A stretch of 64,000 nucleotides of DNA from Micrococcus endophyticus (GTDB lineage Bacteria; Actinomycetota; Actinomycetes; Actinomycetales; Micrococcaceae), in contig NZ_JACHMW010000001.1 in assembly GCF_014205115.1 (NCBI RefSeq), positions 2,542,001-2,606,000 of the forward strand. The letters run 5' to 3'. The notes beneath the pieces are model-generated. The model searched no databases, had not been told where the DNA came from, and saw only the letters and a program-made list of their open reading frames with translations. This document shows positions 19,260-26,034 of the stretch, in pieces (position 1 is the first letter of the stretch; each line of letters opens with the position of its first letter). The translations under genes were made by a program, and so were the position numbers.

Positions 19260-19931
19260 ATGAGCTTCATCCAGACCGACACCCCGCTGACCCAGGACGA
19301 GCTGGCGAAGGTGATCGCCGCGGACATCGCCCCCGGCTCCTTCGTGAACCTGGGCATCGGCCAGCCCACCACGGTCTCCAACTACCTGGAGGCCGAGAAG
19401 AACGTCACCCTGCACACCGAGAACGGCATGCTGGGCTTCGGCCCCGAGGCCGAGGCCGAGGGCGAGCAGGTGGACGAGGACCTCATCAACGCCGGCAAGA
19501 TCCCGGTCACCGAGCTGCCCGGCGCCGCGTACTTCCACCACGCCGACTCGTTCGCGATGATGCGCGGCGGCCACCTGGACGTGTGCGTCCTCGGCGCCTA
19601 CCAGGTCTCCGCCACCGGCGACCTGGCCAACTGGTCCACCGGCAAGCCCGGCGCCATCCCCGCCGTCGGCGGCGCGATGGACCTGGCCATCGGCGCCAAG
19701 GACACCTACGTGATGATGGACCTCTTCACCAAGAAGGGCGATCCCAAGCTCCTTGCCGAGTGCACCTTCCCGCTCACCGGCGTCGGCTGCGTCTCCCGCA
19801 TCTACGCGGACAAGGGCGTGTTCCTGCTGGACGAGACCGGCGTGGTCAAGGTCCGCGAGCTGCACGGCATCACCTGGGACGAGCTCGAGGAGGGTCACCC
19901 CGGGGTGCGCTTCGAGAAGGTCGAGGGCTGA
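19260..19931 (+). CDS. pcaJ: 3-oxoadipate CoA-transferase subunit B PcaJ
   Basis: Beta subunit of the 3-oxoadipate CoA-transferase (223 residues). The catalytic glutamate of family-I CoA-transferases is in H-T-E54-N-G-M-L-G. Other hallmarks are the VNLGIGQPTTV loop, RGGHLDVCVLGAYQVSATGDLANW, GAIPAVGGAMDLAIGAK and CTFPLTGVGCVSRIY. Follows pcaI in the same transcript. Downstream are three tandem repeats facing the amidase gene. Confidence 0.94.
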   Translation: MSFIQTDTPLTQDELAKVIAADIAPGSFVNLGIGQPTTVSNYLEAEKNVTLHTENGMLGFGPEAEAEGEQVDEDLINAGKIPVTELPGAAYFHHADSFAMMRGGHLDVCVLGAYQVSATGDLANWSTGKPGAIPAVGGAMDLAIGAKDTYVMMDLFTKKGDPKLLAECTFPLTGVGCVSRIYADKGVFLLDETGVVKVRELHGITWDELEEGHPGVRFEKVEG

Positions 19932-19988
19932 CGAGGCCTGCCGGACGCCGACGGGGGCGGGGAGGGGTGACCCTCCCCGCCCCCGTCG

Positions 19989-20077
19989 CCTTCGTGTGGG
20001 AAACGGGAGCCTCCCGGGGTGCTTTCGTGTGGGAAACGGGAGCCTCCCGGGGTGCTTTCGTGTGGGAAGCGGGAGCC
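19989..20077. repeat. Three tandem 33-bp repeats of a TTTCGTGTGGGAAACGGGAG core
   Basis: Copies of the core begin at about 19991, 20024 and 20057 with an exact 33-bp period; the third has one base change and diverges in its second half. They fill the gap between the convergent ends of pcaJ and the LysM amidase. The same core recurs three more times at 24,282-24,358 in both orientations, so it is a dispersed intergenic repeat and not part of either gene. Confidence 0.85.
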
Positions 20078-20109
20078 TCCAGCGGCGCCTCCGGGCGGGA
20101 GACGGGAGC

Positions 20110-22230
20110 TCAGGCGATGCGCAGGACCATCCCCGGGTGCAGCAGGGTCGAGGCGGTCATGCGGTTGAAGCGCTGCAGCTCGGCCATGGAGACGCCGGTG
20201 CGGTCGGCGATGATCCACCAGCCGTCGTTCGGCCGCACCGTGTAGGTGGCGGGGGCCAGCGCGGGCGCCGCCGCAGTGGCGTTCTGGCCGGTGACCAGGA
20301 CCATCCCCGGGTGCAGCAGGGTGTCCGCGGTCATCCCGTTGAGGCGCTGCAGGGTCTCCATGGTCACGCCGGTGCGGTGGGCGATGACCCACCAGCCGTC
20401 GCCGTCGCGCACGGTGTAGGTGCCCGGGGCCGGAGCGGGAGCCGGCGCCGGCGCGGGAGCGGGCGCCGGGGCCGTGGCGGCCGTGATCAGCACCATCCCC
20501 GGGTGGAGCAGGGTGTCCGCGGCCATGCCGTTGAGGCGCTGCAGCTCCTCCGCGGGCACGCCGGTGCGCCGGGCGATGACCCACCAGCCGTCGTTCGGCT
20601 GGACGGTGTACGTGCCCGTGGTGACAGGGGTGGGGGCCGGGGCGGAGACGTCGGCCACCAGGCGCAGCACCATGCCCGGGTGCAGCAGGGTGGACTCGGT
20701 CATGCCGTTGAGCTCCTGGATGGTGGCCGCGGGCACGCCGGTGCGCCGGGCGATGACCCACCAGCCGTCTCCGTCCTGGACCGTGTAGGTCGTCGGCGTC
20801 GTGGGCTCCGGCGTGGGGATCGGCTCGGGCTCCGGCGTCGGGGTCGGCTCGGGCTCGGGCGTGGGGGTCGGCTCGGGCTCGGGGGCGGGGGCCTCCTGTC
20901 CGGCGGCCGCCGCGATCGTCGCGGCCCGGTCCCGGACGTCGTCGAACCGGGCCATCAGGTGCCGGCCCGGGCAGGCGGTGTTCGACGTCGTGCGGTGCGG
21001 GAAGATCGTGTCCACCGTGACCGGCGTCCCCGCGGCGTACTTGGTGCTGCCGCCGGAGGTGAGGGTGACGCGCCCGTAGGGATCGAGTCCGTCCCGGTAC
21101 AGGTAGTAGGCGGTGGCGCGGGCCATCGCGTCGACGACCTCCTCGGAGGGGGCCACGACGTCGTAGTTGCCCATCGTCGAGATGCCCATGGTGCCGGTGT
21201 TGAACCCGCCGGCGTGCGTGCCGAGGGGGTTGGCGTCGAGGGCGCCGCGGCGGCCCTCGTAGATGTTGCCGAACCGGTCGGTGATCAGGTGGTACGGGAA
21301 GTCGCCCCAGTCCAGGGTCTTCGTGTAGTACGCGTAGATCGCGCGCATCTGCTCCACGGCCTGGGCGCGCGTGTAGTCGTTCGTGCCGGCCGAGTGGTGG
21401 ATGGTCAGGGCGCGCGCCTGCTCGAACTGCGGGGAGGCCTGCGCCCAGGACTCGTCCGCGCCCCACTGGGCGCGCGTGATCACGTCCGGCAGGATCCGGG
21501 TCCGGGCCTCGGAGGCGGTGGAGACCGTGCGGGCCGTCGCGGGCTCGGCGCCCCCGACGACGGCGCTGGACTTCACGCCCCGCGGCAGGGCCGCGTCCTG
21601 GGCGGCCTGGCCCGTGGAGACGGCGGGGTGGGCGCTGGCGACCGCTTCGTCCGTGGCGGCGGTGCCCGGGTCGACCAGGGACAGCTCGAGGCCGGCCGGG
21701 GCCGCGCCGTCGGCGGTGGTGAGGCGCAGCTGGGCGCCGTCGGCCCCGAACGCGACGAAGGGGTCCGTGCCCGTGCGGGTCACCGCGGCGCCCTCGGGCA
21801 GCACGGCGCGCTCCAGGATCTGCCACGGGCCCCACGCGCCGTCCTGGCGGACGCGGATCTCCACGCGCTCCACGGCGTGGTCCGCGGCGGCGTCCCAGAC
21901 GGCGGCGGCCATGGTGAACGGGCGGTCCACCACGGGCTCGCCGAGCACGACGCCGGCGGGCGCGTCCGCGAGGGCCTCGCCCTCCTGGGGCACGGCGGCC
22001 ACGGCGGCCCCGCGCACCTCGGAGGCGGCCGCCGGGGCCTGGCCGGAGCCGGCGGAGGCGAGGGTGCGGAGGGCGGCGGCGTCGCCGGCCTCGGAGGCGG
22101 GGGAGGGGGCCGCCGTTGTGGGGACGGGCTGCTGCGGGAGCAGGCCGCCGACGAGGACGGACAGGGCCGCCACGACGACGGCGGGGGCGAGCGGGCGGGG
22201 GGACGCGGAGCGCGGCGCGGAGAGCTTCAT
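20110..22230 (-). CDS. Secreted N-acetylmuramoyl-L-alanine amidase with four LysM domains
   Basis: A 706-residue exported peptidoglycan hydrolase. Signal peptide at 1-38 (KLSAPRS then a long hydrophobic stretch). Residues about 50-230 are an Ala-rich actinobacterial leader with a WGPWQILE segment. A PGRP/amidase-2 domain follows (VITRAQWGADESW; ALTIHHSAGTNDYT with zinc His; THAGGFNTGTMGIS; HRTTSNTACPGRHL). A PEPEPTPTPEPEPTP linker leads to four LysM repeats at about 481-523, 540-583, 604-647 and 662-706, each with GDGWWVIARRTGV or PNDGWWVI and TLLHPGMVL. ATG 22228-22230 is chosen because it starts the signal peptide and has a GAAGG site. It cuts the glycan-peptide amide bond, with LysM anchoring to the wall. 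Confidence 0.9.
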   Translation of the reverse strand: MKLSAPRSASPRPLAPAVVVAALSVLVGGLLPQQPVPTTAAPSPASEAGDAAALRTLASAGSGQAPAAASEVRGAAVAAVPQEGEALADAPAGVVLGEPVVDRPFTMAAAVWDAAADHAVERVEIRVRQDGAWGPWQILERAVLPEGAAVTRTGTDPFVAFGADGAQLRLTTADGAAPAGLELSLVDPGTAATDEAVASAHPAVSTGQAAQDAALPRGVKSSAVVGGAEPATARTVSTASEARTRILPDVITRAQWGADESWAQASPQFEQARALTIHHSAGTNDYTRAQAVEQMRAIYAYYTKTLDWGDFPYHLITDRFGNIYEGRRGALDANPLGTHAGGFNTGTMGISTMGNYDVVAPSEEVVDAMARATAYYLYRDGLDPYGRVTLTSGGSTKYAAGTPVTVDTIFPHRTTSNTACPGRHLMARFDDVRDRAATIAAAAGQEAPAPEPEPTPTPEPEPTPTPEPEPIPTPEPTTPTTYTVQDGDGWWVIARRTGVPAATIQELNGMTESTLLHPGMVLRLVADVSAPAPTPVTTGTYTVQPNDGWWVIARRTGVPAEELQRLNGMAADTLLHPGMVLITAATAPAPAPAPAPAPAPAPGTYTVRDGDGWWVIAHRTGVTMETLQRLNGMTADTLLHPGMVLVTGQNATAAAPALAPATYTVRPNDGWWIIADRTGVSMAELQRFNRMTASTLLHPGMVLRIA

Positions 22231-22614
22231 GCGGGTGCCTTCGGAAGGTGTGGAGCCCGGGGCGGGAGGGAGGCGAGACGGCGTGCCCGGGGCGAGGACG
22301 GCGGCGGACCTGCGGGGAATCCGGCCCGAGCCTCGGCGATCGTAGCGTGAAGGGGCATTGCGGGAGGCCATTTCCCACTGTGGATTCGGTCTATTCCACG
22401 GGTACGGGGCGTCCATTTTCCGAGTTCACAGCGCAAGCGCATTCCGCGCGGAGGAAACGCACAGCAACGGGGCTCCTCGGGCCGGTGGCGCCCGCCGGAC
22501 GCCGGCCCGCCGCACGCCGTCCGCGAACCCGCGTGCGGCGTCCGGGGCGGGCGCTACCGTGGCGGGAGACGAGCACGGACCGGCGAGGCCGGCGGAGCAC
22601 AGGAGGAGCAGGTC
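22231..22614. other. 384-bp divergent intergenic region, A+T-richer patch
   Basis: Lies between the amidase (-) and the Rieske ferredoxin (+). Most is GC-rich, but about 22,360-22,455 is noticeably richer in A+T than anything nearby and contains GTGGATTCGGTCTATTCCAC (22380-22399), a short dyad with 5-bp arms. The promoters of both genes must lie here; I cannot fix -10/-35 boxes or recognise a riboswitch class. Confidence 0.4.
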
Positions 22615-22944
22615 ATGGCGGAGCCCATCCACATCGGCGCAGCGGCGGACATCCCGGAGGGGGAGGCCGTCGTCGTCCCTGCGGCCACGGCCGGGACGAG
22701 CGACGACGTCGCCGTGTTCCACGCCGAGGACGGCGCGTTCTACGCGATCGACGACACCTGCACCCACGAGGACGCCTCCCTCGCCGAGGGCTGGCTCGAG
22801 GGCACGCAGGTGGAGTGCCCGCTGCACTCCGCGCAGTTCTGCCTCAAGAGCGGCGAGGCGCTCTGCCTGCCCGCCACCCGGCCCGTGGGCACCCATCCGG
22901 TCCAGGAGCGGGACGGGCAGCTCTACCTCACCCCCGGCGCATGA
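22615..22944 (+). CDS. Rieske-type [2Fe-2S] ferredoxin
   Basis: A 109-residue electron-transfer protein. Rieske ligands are C49-T-H51 and C68-P-L-H71 (DDTCTHEDASLAEGWLEG...VECPLHSAQF), the spacing of dioxygenase-type ferredoxins. CAGGAGGAGCAG-type ribosome site. It overlaps the reductase downstream by 4 nt (ATGA), so the two form an NAD(P)H-to-ferredoxin pair. The terminal oxygenase is not in the window; candidates elsewhere include ring-hydroxylating dioxygenases. Confidence 0.9.
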   Translation: MAEPIHIGAAADIPEGEAVVVPAATAGTSDDVAVFHAEDGAFYAIDDTCTHEDASLAEGWLEGTQVECPLHSAQFCLKSGEALCLPATRPVGTHPVQERDGQLYLTPGA

Positions 22945-24230
22945 GCGGCGACGTCGACGCGCGGGCGGGCGCGCCCGCCTCGGTGGTCGTGGTGGGCGGC
23001 GGCGTGGCCGGGTTCGGGGCGGTCCGCGAGCTGCGCCGCCGCGGCCACACCGGGTCCCTCGCGCTCGTGGAGCCGCAGGGCGTGCCGTACGACCGGCCCC
23101 CGCTGAGCAAGGACTACCTGACGGGGGAGACGGACGCGCACCGGCTGCTGTTCGCGCCGCCGTCCTGGTTCGCCGAGCACGACGTGGAGCTGGTGGAGGA
23201 GGCCGCCGTGCGCCTGACGCCCGGCGGCGCCCACCCCGACGGCGACCCCGTGCCGCACCGGGTGGAGCTCGCCTCCGGGCGCGTGCTCGAGGCCGAGGCC
23301 GTGGTGCTCGCCACGGGCGGCCGCCCCCGGCCCCTGGACGTCGAGGGCGCGACGCACCCGGGCCTGATCACGCTGCGCACGCGCGCCGACGCCGACGCGC
23401 TGCGCGAGCGGCTGCACTTCGGGGCGGAGGTGGCCGTGGTCGGCGGCGGGTTCACCGGCGCCGAGGCCGCCTCCTCCGCGCGGCAGGCCCTCGCCGCCGT
23501 GACCCTCGTGACCGCCACGGACGCGCCCGCGCTGCGTGCCGTGGGGCCCGCGCTCGCGGCCCGGCTGCACCGGATGCACGCCGAGCACGGCGTGGCCGTC
23601 GAGGTCGGCCGGGTGGCGCGCATCGAGCACCGGGACGACGACGGCGGCGCCGCGCTGCCGGCCGCCCACCGCCTGCACCTGGGCGACGGGCGGACCGTGG
23701 ACGCCGACGTCGTGGTGCTGGCCGGCGGCACCGTGCCGGACACGGCGCTCGCCGAGGAGGCCGGGCTGGAGGTGGCGGACGGGATCCTCGTGGACGAGGC
23801 CGGCCGCACGAGCGTGCCCGGGATCCTCGCCGTGGGCGACGCCACCCGGGCGACCGACTCGGCGTGGGGGCCGTCGCCGCACTGGGAGCCGGCCCTGAGC
23901 TCCGGCGCGGCGGCCGCCGCGGCGCTCCTGGGGGAGGAGCCCGAGCCGCCCGGCGCCCCCTGGCTCTGGTCCGACCGGCACGGCTGCCACGTGGAGGCCG
24001 TGGGGGACATGGCCGTGCCCGCGGGCGGGGCGAGCGTGGACCGCGAGGCGCGCGGCGCCGCGGTGGCGAGCTTCGTCCTCGACGCCGAGGGGCGGATGCG
24101 CGGGGCGGCGTCGATCGACGACCCCATGGCCGTCAAGGCGGCCCGCCGCATCATCGACCGCGGGATCGTGGTGGACCCGCAGGCCCTCGCCGACCCGACG
24201 GTGCCGCTGAAGTCGCTCGCCCGGGGGTGA
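22941..24230 (+). CDS. FAD-dependent ferredoxin reductase
   Basis: A 429-residue NAD(P)H:ferredoxin oxidoreductase of the rubredoxin/putidaredoxin reductase type. The FAD motif GGGVAGFGA is near residue 20, YDRPPLSKDYL follows, the NAD(P) motif VVGGGFTGAEAA lies near 165, and the C-terminal FAD motif ILAVGDATR is followed by a reductase C-terminal domain (HWEPALSSG; PWLWSDRHGCHVEAVG). ATG at 22941 overlaps the ferredoxin stop, indicating a two-component electron donor for an oxygenase located elsewhere. Confidence 0.9.
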   Translation: MSGDVDARAGAPASVVVVGGGVAGFGAVRELRRRGHTGSLALVEPQGVPYDRPPLSKDYLTGETDAHRLLFAPPSWFAEHDVELVEEAAVRLTPGGAHPDGDPVPHRVELASGRVLEAEAVVLATGGRPRPLDVEGATHPGLITLRTRADADALRERLHFGAEVAVVGGGFTGAEAASSARQALAAVTLVTATDAPALRAVGPALAARLHRMHAEHGVAVEVGRVARIEHRDDDGGAALPAAHRLHLGDGRTVDADVVVLAGGTVPDTALAEEAGLEVADGILVDEAGRTSVPGILAVGDATRATDSAWGPSPHWEPALSSGAAAAAALLGEEPEPPGAPWLWSDRHGCHVEAVGDMAVPAGGASVDREARGAAVASFVLDAEGRMRGAASIDDPMAVKAARRIIDRGIVVDPQALADPTVPLKSLARG

Positions 24231-24281
24231 GGGGGCGCGCCCCACCACACCCCCGGGTGAGGAGGAGCTTTCGTCCCTCAT

Positions 24282-24358
24282 CCCTTTCGTGTGGGAAACG
24301 GGAACTCCCGTTTCCCACACGAAAGGGGTGGGAAGGCTCCCGTTTCCCACAAGAAAGC
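24282..24358. repeat. 22-bp-arm inverted repeat plus extra inverted copy of the GTGGGAAACGGGA element
   Basis: Arms 24282-24303 and 24306-24327 are perfect inverted copies of CCCTTTCGTGTGGGAAACGGGA separated by two bases. A further inverted copy with one change follows at about 24336-24358. The core is the same as the tandem repeat at 19,989-20,077. It lies between the convergent ends of the ferredoxin reductase and selO and would form a strong bidirectional terminator. Confidence 0.88.
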
Positions 24359-24404
24359 GGTGGGGCGGGGAGCGGGAGTGGGGGAGCCCCCTGCCGCCCC
24401 CGCC

Positions 24405-25949
24405 TCACGTCCCGCAGTACGTCACGAACGGGGCCGCGTCCGACGGGCCCGGCTCGGCGTACCGCTCGAGGCCCGGGCGCGGGGTGAACGGGTCGGTGAC
24501 GGCCTCCAGGAGGCGGCGCACCGGCCCCAGGTCCCCGTCCTCGGCGGCGGTGAGGGCGTCGTCGAGCAGGTGGTTCCGCGGGATGTAGACGGGGTTCGCC
24601 GCCCGCATCCGGGCCGCGTCGGGGCCCAGCGACTGCCAGTCGCGCAGCCACGCGACGACGGCGGCCGGGTCGGCCGCGCCGGGGACGAGCATCTGCGCCT
24701 CGGCCAGCTTGCTGGCGCTTGCCTCAGCATTTCCCCGCCCGGCGCCCGAAGCCACGTGCTCCGCCAGCCGCACCCAGAAGCCCGTCCAGTCGGTCCGCGC
24801 GGCGGCCAGCACGGGGAACAGGCGGTCGGTGAGCGCCGCGACGTCGGCGTCCGTCACCTCCTCGCCGAGCCCCAGCTTGGCGCGCAGCCCGCCCCGCCAC
24901 GCGGCCAGGTGCGTCGCCTGGAAGCCGCCGAGCGCCTCCTGCGCGAGGTCGACGGCCCGGCCGGCGTCGTCGTCGAGCACGGGCACGAGCGTCTCGCCGA
25001 GGCGCGCCAGGTTCCACGCGGCCACGGGCCCCTGGTTGCCGAACGCGTACCGGCCCTGCGTGTCGATCGAGGAGAAGGACGCCGCGGGGTCGAAGGCGTC
25101 GATGAAGGCGCACGGCCCGTAGTCGATGGTCTCGCCGGAGAGGGTCATGTTGTCCGTGTTCATCACGCCGTGCACGAAGCCCACGAGCATCCAGCGGGCC
25201 ACCAGCTCGGCCTGCGCGGCGATGACCGCCTCGTACAGCGCGAGCGCCGGGTTCTCCGCCTCGGCGGCGTGCGGGTGGTGGCGGAGGATCGCCTCGTCCA
25301 CGAGCCGGCGCAGCACCGCGACGGGGTCGGCCCGCTCGGGCAGCGCGGCGGCGTACTGGAACGAGCCCACGCGCAGGTGGGAGGCCGCGGTGCGGGCGAG
25401 GAGGGCACCGGGCTGCCACCCCGCCCGACGCACGGGGCGCCCCGTGGCGACGACGGCCAGCGCGCGCGTGGTCGGCACGCCGAGGGCGTGCATCGCCTCG
25501 GACACCGCGTACTCGCGCAGCATGGGGCCCAGGACCGCCTGCCCGTCCGCGTCACCGCGGGCGAACGGGGTGCGGCCGGAGCCCTTCAGGTGCAGCTCGC
25601 GCCAGGTGGGCAGGGCCTGCGGGGCGTCGTCGGCGTCGCGGGTGCGCCGCGGCGGGACCAGCTCGCCCAGCAGCAGCGCGCGACCGTCCCCGAGGCGGGG
25701 GGAGTAGTGGCCGAACTGGTGTCCGGCGTAGGCCTGCGCCACCGGCTTCGCCTCCGGGCCCGGCCGCTCGCCCGTGAGGAGGCGGAGGCCGTCGTCGGAG
25801 GCGAGCCAGTCCGCGTCCAGGCCGAGCTCCTCGGCCAGCCCGGCGTTGAGCAGCACCAGCTCGGGACCGTCGGTCTCCTGGGCCTGCCAGGGCAGGGCGA
25901 GTTCGGGGAAGCGGTCGGCGAAGCGGTGGTGCAGGGTGGGCGCGGGCAT
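24405..25949 (-). CDS. selO: Protein adenylyltransferase SelO (YdiU/UPF0061)
   Basis: Pseudokinase-fold AMPylase that transfers AMP from ATP to Ser/Thr/Tyr of target proteins. The 514 residues match the family. Visible blocks are [90 protein letters not shown] and NPVYIPRNH. The C-terminus ends in VTYCGT, so Cys stands where eukaryotic SelO has selenocysteine near its end. Start at ATG 25947-25949 follows family alignment ([16 protein letters not shown]); no strong ribosome site. It is 85 nt downstream of hpaI but functionally unrelated. Confidence 0.92.
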
Positions 25950-26034
25950 GGGCCCCACGCTACGGCCCGCCCGCCGGCGGGACACGCGTCGAGCGGCCGC
26001 CGGGTAGGAGGCGAGGGTGAGGCGGCCGCGGCCC

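Follow-up and report, generated by a model that had tools for sequence, protein, structure and literature searches.

MIRU are tandem repeats of actinobacterial intergenic regions, about 46-101 bp long and oriented with the neighbouring genes, and we know of no concert of dialects across species for them. The uptake sequences of Neisseria and the Pasteurellaceae come in species dialects, occur about once per kb, also inside genes, and can form terminators as inverted pairs. In eukaryotic rDNA, terminator arrays (Sal boxes/TTF-I, Reb1 sites) are tandem, polar, located downstream of genes and divergent between species. Beyond Rho, we know of no factor that recognises a specific sequence and terminates transcription at ordinary genes of bacteria. 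REP/BIME elements are characterised, in the excerpts of one paper used here, as short, intergenic and multi-copy, occurring singly or as dimers of differing relative orientation, tandem reiteration included (PMC3733652). Excerpts of another describe the TAACTGA direct repeats of Beggiatoaceae as heptamers placed mostly just upstream of start codons (PMC4679880); unlike the repeats so described, the Micrococcus repeat presented here has 33-bp units located downstream of stop codons.

The unit and its copies

The core of the repeat is a unit with a 33-bp period, CTTTCGTGYGGGAAACGGGAG plus a spacer, and looks dyad-like (TTTC-N6-GAAA). A 14-mer of the core was used as a search probe. In the window (the whole 64,000-nucleotide stretch analysed, part of the genome called G000 here), seven matches were found at up to two mismatches where 0.52 were expected, and none of 100 shuffles reached seven. 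Six of the seven have at most one mismatch, in agreement with the six copies claimed by an initial annotation of this DNA.

The first array is found at the 3' end of a pcaJ-like gene for a CoA-transferase subunit (19260-19931, + strand, PF01144). Its units at 19989-20009 (CCTTCGTGTGGGAAACGGGAG), 20022-20042 and 20055-20075 (one mismatch to the 14-mer), all on the + strand, are exactly 33 bp apart, as had been described. A fourth unit (20088-20108, + strand), degenerate with two 14-mer mismatches and missing from the earlier count, keeps the 33-bp register and adjoins the stop codon of the convergent neighbour, a gene on the - strand for an N-acetylmuramoyl-L-alanine amidase with four LysM stretches (20110-22230). 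After the pcaJ stop and ahead of the array comes a GC-rich hairpin independent of the units (19944-19993), with 23-nt arms (19944-19966 and 19971-19993) that are 91% complementary. Since this strong hairpin precedes the array, the array is not needed as the sole terminator at pcaJ.

The second gap is also convergent, between the genes for a FAD-dependent reductase (22941-24230, + strand) and the SelO protein adenylyltransferase (24405-25958, - strand, PF02696). One forward and two inverted copies had been announced there and were found. Downstream of the reductase gene and in its sense lies a + unit (24284-24304); downstream of selO and in its sense lie two - units, one at 24305-24325, head-to-head with the former, and the other at 24337-24357, 32 bp from the first. 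The two head-to-head units make an inverted repeat (24279-24330), annotated as a hairpin with 22-bp arms; its arms (24279-24303 and 24306-24330) are in fact slightly longer, 25 nt, 96% complementary and separated by 2 nt.

The initial observation is confirmed and reaches far past the window. Counted genome-wide, the 14-mer has at least 110 copies at up to one mismatch in G000 (reversed control, 1), and at least 159 units are present at up to three mismatches in 2.71 Mb, so that the repeat is not confined to the window. The proposal that duplication concerns the core itself, not only the hairpin, also holds, the core being spread over the genome, often in tandem (51 of 88 G000 arrays have at least two units), with inconsistent folding. 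G000 copies at 1,630,238, 1,673,825, 1,740,968, 2,372,019, 2,489,412, 2,606,388 and 2,657,520/553 are among those lying outside the fetched set, and three G005 clusters (C36, C71, C87) lie outside the G005 sequence set.

With one genome per species compared, matches were detected in 10 of 11 genus genomes, and neither genus-wide search gave a match in G001. Among 384 other genomes of the family, the G000-type pattern gave two single matches, equal to the two of the reversed control; this pattern also scores 0 in G005 and G009, which carry the repeat family, so that divergent dialects may well exist in genomes outside the genus. Viral contigs gave six single 16-mer matches, which we judged to be within chance for so large a collection. 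Finally, no description of the repeat was found among the top matches in the open-access literature, by title and opening abstract, and the core sequences, in both orientations, had no match in the open-access literature searched.

Arrays at gene ends and their species dialects

Using our own gene calls, 183 arrays from five species were placed relative to genes. A called gene is overlapped by 14 of them (1/88 in G000, 2/35 in G006, 6/29 in G005, 5/26 in G007 and 0/5 in G002) and one has no neighbour. Among the 168 scoreable arrays, 130 have a same-sense gene upstream; the other 38 have none by these calls and were counted against a gene-end signal. The median distance from stop codon to array is 12-17 nt in four species and 30 nt in G000. 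The convergent setting pointed out in the initial annotation is true of both window gaps and is secondary overall: arrays follow single gene 3' ends, 40 of the 130 same-sense arrays sit before co-directional genes, and each gene brings its own array. The earlier interpretation is thus partly supported: it stands for the duplicated core, and the link to convergent genes does not hold in the form proposed.

Of 154 pairs of neighbouring units in five genomes, 145 have a spacing of 33 or 32 bp, within the 26-48 bp that array building allowed. In G000 arrays of at least three units the spacers are alike (0.81 vs 0.57), so the constant spacing is partly tandem duplication. Over the 12 nt that follow the stop, G000 is C-rich at array ends, with a C content of 0.57 at 57 such ends against 0.44 at 42 unit-free convergent ends.

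The four widely sampled species differ in the dialect of their units. Arrays were assigned to their own dialect in 84/88 cases for G000, 28/29 for G005, 23/35 for G006 and 21/26 for G007, the distinction being weak between G006 and G007. The G002 stretches had been picked by the G000 dialect, and G002 was left out of this test. In spite of the dialects, many arrays share their gene end with a same-sense array of G000: 20/35 in G006, 12/26 in G007 and 4/29 in G005. For G006, with the number of genes estimated at 2,478, about 1.2 were expected (with arrays treated as independent, binomial p=2e-20). Coinciding arrays are offset by at most 60 nt, with a median of 9 over all 53 pairs from the four species, and in 45 of these 53 pairs the assigned dialects are unlike. 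Moreover, tails of copies from the same genome resemble each other more (0.773) than those of orthologues do (0.616, p=1e-5). Array position is thus conserved while the sequence evolves in concert. One pair of G000 and G006 arrays differs in dialect even though 1,469 nt of upstream flank match at 98% identity. Orthologous pairs were found with the repeats masked in the flanks. Dialects may also mark recent imports of DNA between species.

Orthologous gaps also show gains and losses of arrays, and species differ in how many copies a given gene end carries. G002 likewise has the array at its pcaJ end, with different downstream neighbours, the nearest called ones being on the same strand; in G005 the pcaJ array is absent. 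The reductase/selO array is missing from the seven orthologous gaps read, a set that leaves G001, G005 and G009 outside, so that a gene can do without its array. One array of G005 has a selO-like segment next to it, near a contig end.

Readings of the arrays

A conserved position spelled differently in each species suggests a gene-end signal whose sites all change together. We tentatively favour the reading that the arrays are polar gene-end signals, read by a putative sequence-specific trans-acting factor that would stop or reduce transcription beyond the gene. This factor would recognise the one or more units of about 33 bp that closely follow the stop codon in gene orientation; it might act as a DNA-bound roadblock, or be of the Rho kind and profit from the C-rich lead-in. 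A shift of its preference in one species would be followed by the sites, giving species dialects at conserved positions, with selection rather than copying presumably driving the concert. A more specific version appears unlikely: a dedicated bacterial gene-end system, counterpart of the TTF-I/Reb1 arrays, in which a factor bound to tandem sites of about 33 bp after the stops of several dozen genes acts in a polar way, as a terminator or a barrier, and drifts in specificity, so that all sites of a species would switch dialect with it. A polar barrier to replication was rejected: 44 G000 arrays are co-directional with the fork and 44 head-on (genes, 124 and 94; p=0.31), and in G006 and G007, where the terminus was taken as opposite dnaA, arrays show no difference from genes in fork direction.

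The main rival, quite conceivable if on balance doubtful, is that the arrays are a selfish or passive interspersed repeat, spread and overwritten by ectopic copying, which would itself yield dialects. Copying could go through gene conversion, transformation-driven recombination or some enzyme, with copies settling after stop codons, where insertion would be harmless. Tails of orthologous arrays are hardly closer than those of random arrays of the other species (0.616 vs 0.574, p=0.12); this concerted evolution, the gains and losses at orthologous gaps, the duplication within arrays, a copy number ranging from 126 to 0 across the genus (one pattern) and a minus-plus-minus composite arrangement with three occurrences in G000 and one in G006 all fit such spread. 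However, insertion at harmless places would not by itself account for arrays that lie in gene sense and keep a narrow distance from the stop, and positions are shared even where flanks are only about 70-80% identical. No Y1 transposase was detected in the 11 genus genomes (PF01797 in 0/11; the control was positive in 5 of 14 named genomes), and the single plasmid search, for a mobile carrier, with one 91-base query against 72,556 records, gave no match. The units span about 60 bp per pair, which is short for RecA-type conversion.

Intrinsic terminators acting by folding, with a hairpin from each unit or from an inverted pair, are improbable. Inverted pairs in convergent gaps are near-perfect palindromes, and of the 40 convergent ends of G000 that bear arrays, 21 have stems of at least 10 bp made with units. 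Against this, tandem arrays fold no better than shuffled sequences in G006 (mean z +0.23, 24 arrays) and G007 (+0.07, 18) and only mildly better in G000 (-0.87, 51; antisense strand -0.66) and G005 (-0.71, 26), and, judged by eye, the spacer, which is only loosely complementary, varies and the first arm does not. A scan of 19800-24500 for classical intrinsic terminators, which requires a U-tract and so reaches only terminators having one, found no hairpin-plus-T-tract site (0.2 in shuffles). No sigma-70 promoter was found in 19800-24500. Arrays replacing hairpins were also considered, with an ambiguous outcome that was counted against the gene-end reading. Pooled over four species, with each convergent gap counted from both sides, independent stems are scarcer in the convergent gaps that contain units (Mantel-Haenszel p=0.024); the sign reverses once unit masks are put on unit-free gaps (p=0.030), and within single species there is mostly no significant difference.

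We hold an RNA element of the 3' untranslated region, serving mRNA stability or as a small-RNA target, to be very improbable. The sense orientation of the arrays agrees with it. No independent stem of at least 10 bp is present at 78 of 115 array-bearing gene ends of the four species, which speaks for the gene-end reading, and where stems exist they come after the array at 31 ends and before it at 6; the array thus mostly lies between stop and hairpin, which fits a 3'-UTR element too. However, the near-fixed 32/33 spacing and the dyad-like TTTC-N6-GAAA suit DNA recognition more, and there is no common fold. An RNA-fold element was rejected: two of the four species have a fold z close to zero, and the repeat has no Rfam match at gathering score, where the window gave only a tRNA. 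A lax Rfam search of 19900-24450 returned ten sub-threshold matches, nine to microRNA families and one to a viral element.

The least probable reading takes the arrays for DNA uptake sequences, with the genus naturally competent, or for sites that organise the chromosome: the dialects resemble neisserial ones and three species have an origin-proximal excess (KS p=0.00025, 0.0096 and 0.0032 with 2-kb clustering, the terminus of G006 and G007 again placed opposite dnaA), but this bias weakens with 20-kb (0.057, 0.16, 0.0088) and 50-kb clustering (0.32, 0.32, 0.062), the sites are few (at least 159 units; 39 exact-copy sites at 2-kb clustering) and tied to gene ends, there is no fork-direction bias, and one paper on Micrococcus transformation, searched for the words 'uptake sequence', does not contain them (PMC4322843).

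Altogether, conserved position combined with genome-wide concerted change is a clue either to a factor reading gene ends or to a homogenising process. Both can be tested by Micrococcus genetics, since Micrococcus luteus is naturally transformable (PMC6370729; PMC4322843; PMC8467076).

Comparison with known systems

Like REP/BIME, the repeat is extragenic and multi-copy; unlike them, its units have no consistent folding and are mostly in gene sense at 32/33 bp. REP/RAYT elements were rejected as candidates, the 11 genus genomes searched giving no Y1 transposase and the fold z values given above not being those of a palindrome with a stable stem-loop. MIRU share intergenic tandem units oriented with genes, as the same-sense arrays are here, and are set apart by their greater length and, as far as we know, by the absence of a dialect concert across species. 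From uptake sequences, which are dense and lie also in coding DNA, the repeat differs by its far lower density, its place at gene 3' ends, its tandem arrays and its few overlaps with called genes. If the gene-end reading holds, and as an analogy only, the arrays would resemble those of TTF-I and Reb1, from which they differ in being bacterial, in lying at many protein genes and in having a factor that is putative.

The repeat in the window, the genome and the genus

We searched the window with a 14-mer from the core of the repeat and found seven units at up to two mismatches, against a chance expectation of 0.52. Six of these had at most one mismatch, as many as the initial annotation had claimed, and the seventh was degenerate. 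Downstream of the pcaJ-like CoA-transferase gene the 33-bp period described earlier was exact, but the run held four tandem units instead of three, the degenerate fourth having gone unlisted. The reductase/SelO gap contained three units, two of them head to head and forming an inverted repeat with 25-nt arms. Pfam searches of the window genes confirmed CoA_trans, Amidase_2 with four LysM stretches, Rieske, Pyr_redox_2 and SelO. The repeat reaches well outside the window (2,542,001-2,606,000 of a 2,710,986-bp genome): at up to one mismatch the whole M. endophyticus genome (G000) held 110 copies of the 14-mer, 53 forward and 57 reverse, and the pattern read backwards matched once. A 21-mer from the same core gave 159 matches at up to three mismatches and its control none. 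In 32 G000 stretches around copies, the element appeared as CGCTTTCGTGYGGGAAACGGGAGSCT with a more variable stretch after it, and its period was mostly 33 or 32 bp. These stretches held 88 same-direction arrays, with one unit in 37, two in 42, three in 7 and four in 2. In one array a run of 23 C (2407494-2407516) separated two units, possibly a slippage tract or an assembly effect. A composite minus-plus-minus arrangement with GATC in its spacer was seen at 1809097-1809183, 2014750-2014883 and 2404334-2404453, and once in another species (G006, stretch L065, 2996-3123); it looks as if it had been moved en bloc.

Matches were present in 10 of the 11 genus genomes. With the core CTTTCGTTCGGGAAACGG at up to two mismatches, we counted 126 in G000, 59 in G005, 55 in G006, 42 in G007, 39 in G002 and 12 in G003, at most 8 in each remaining genome, zero in G001 and zero in the controls. 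Among 395 family genomes, 11 of them from the genus, the G000-type 21-mer at up to two mismatches matched in 10; outside the genus it gave only two single matches, and the reversed control equally gave one match in each of two genomes. This 21-mer scored 0 in G005 and G009, though both carry the repeat, so that divergent spellings beyond the genus would escape it. A single 91-base query matched none of 72,556 plasmid records. In the open-access library searched, the core was found in neither orientation, and among the top-listed papers no title or opening abstract seemed to describe such a repeat.

Placement at gene ends

Gene ends were taken from our own gene calls, the upstream gene being defined along the array's own direction. 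This gene was in the same sense as the array for 65 of 87 arrays in G000, 23/33 in G006, 19/22 in G005, 19/21 in G007 and 4/5 in G002, with median distances from stop codon to array of 30, 17, 12, 13 and 15 nt, respectively. Arrays overlapping a called gene (1, 2, 6, 5 and 0, in the same order) were set aside, as was one G005 array without a neighbour. The overlapping ones, among them L093, L094, L097 and L106 (G005) and L107, L108, L113 and L120 (G007), reflect either over-extended gene calls or arrays within coding DNA. In convergent gaps arrays from both genes were often present, hence their inverted appearance. Both loci of the window do lie between convergent genes, as first described, but 40 of 130 same-sense arrays precede a co-directional gene; the convergent setting is therefore largely a by-product of the gene-end rule.

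The pcaJ end was then compared between genomes. G002 carries two units there, 33 bp apart, the first starting two bases past the TGA, with a tail, CGGACGGC, unlike that of G000. Since the next called genes are on the same strand and the amidase is absent, the array belongs with pcaJ. In G009 two degenerate units can be made out by eye at a spacing of 32 bp, the first of them 10 bases past the TGA, and G005 has a long hairpin in place of an array. The reductase/selO gap measures 174 nt in G000, 27 in G006, 6 in both G010 and G008, 35 in G004, 88 in G002, 226 in G007 and 238 in G003. The latter seven gaps contained no unit at up to two mismatches, G006 having one variant site, CTTCCGTTGACGAAAC; this array would thus have been either gained in the G000 line or lost elsewhere.

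Conserved positions and species-specific spelling

In the four widely sampled species (G000, G006, G005 and G007), the first 15 bases of the unit are nearly common and the continuation differs, its consensus being CGGGAGCCT, CGGCGGC, C(c)GTCG(a)GT and CGGC(gc)C, respectively. In some arrays a palindromic variant, CTTTCGTTGACGAAAC, replaces a unit, with nine exact copies in G006 (for example 122336-122351 and 141715-141730). Comparing flanks with the arrays masked, we found 53 same-sense array pairs at shared gene ends in these species, offset by at most 60 nt (median 9). A G000 partner existed for 20 of 35 G006 arrays, against about 1.2 expected by chance (given 88 G000 arrays and a gene total estimated at 2,478), for 12/26 in G007 and for 4/29 in G005. 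Over the nine bases past the common core, agreement was 0.616 between orthologous arrays, 0.773 within a genome and 0.574 with random arrays of other species; paralogues were closer than orthologues (p=1e-5), and orthologues compared with random arrays gave p=0.12. Only 8 of the 53 pairs shared an assigned dialect, that is, a species-specific spelling: 3/4 with flanks at least 95% identical and 5/49 below 95%. In one pair (G000 L059 and G006 L084) the upstream flanks are 98% identical and each array has two tandem units, with unlike dialects. Array positions are thus conserved while the sequence changes in concert.

Arrays in a foreign dialect were seen in L065 and L080 (G006) and L105 (G005). 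Their flanks match the species of that dialect at up to 95-98% identity, so that recent import is likely. Dialects could serve as markers of gene transfer.

Possible spread by copying, folding and a putative role in termination

The strongest rival explanation is that the arrays are a repeat that spreads by copying, which fits the concerted change and the repeated gains and losses but accounts less well for gene-sense polarity and for the distance kept from stop codons. Sites were commoner towards the replication origin (dnaA at 2,159,494 in G000) with 2-kb clustering (KS p 0.00025 in G000, 0.0096 in G006, 0.0032 in G007); with 20-kb clustering the values were 0.057, 0.16 and 0.0088, and the enrichment was less clear once sites within 20 or 50 kb were merged. 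A G000 site roughly opposite dnaA (738963-738984) is dif-like, with two mismatches to the dif pattern. Array orientation showed no bias relative to replication fork direction.

Tandem arrays of G006 and G007 folded no better than shuffled sequence and those of G000 and G005 mildly better, the G000 antisense strand being nearly equal. Without a consistent advantage across species, the hairpin is not the shared function. In four species, an independent stem of at least 10 bp was lacking at 78 of the 115 gene ends that carry an array; it followed the array at 31 and preceded it at 6. Two versions of a test for arrays in place of hairpins gave opposite signs. Neighbouring spacers are alike inside longer arrays, and tandem duplication therefore explains part of the 32/33-bp spacing. 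The favoured reading is a putative role in transcription termination, in which a factor would recognise units near the gene end. Such recognition is suggested by the conserved primary sequence, by the gene-sense polarity and by units set almost constantly 32 or 33 bp apart, roughly three turns of the helix. The C-rich lead-in to the arrays would suit Rho as well.
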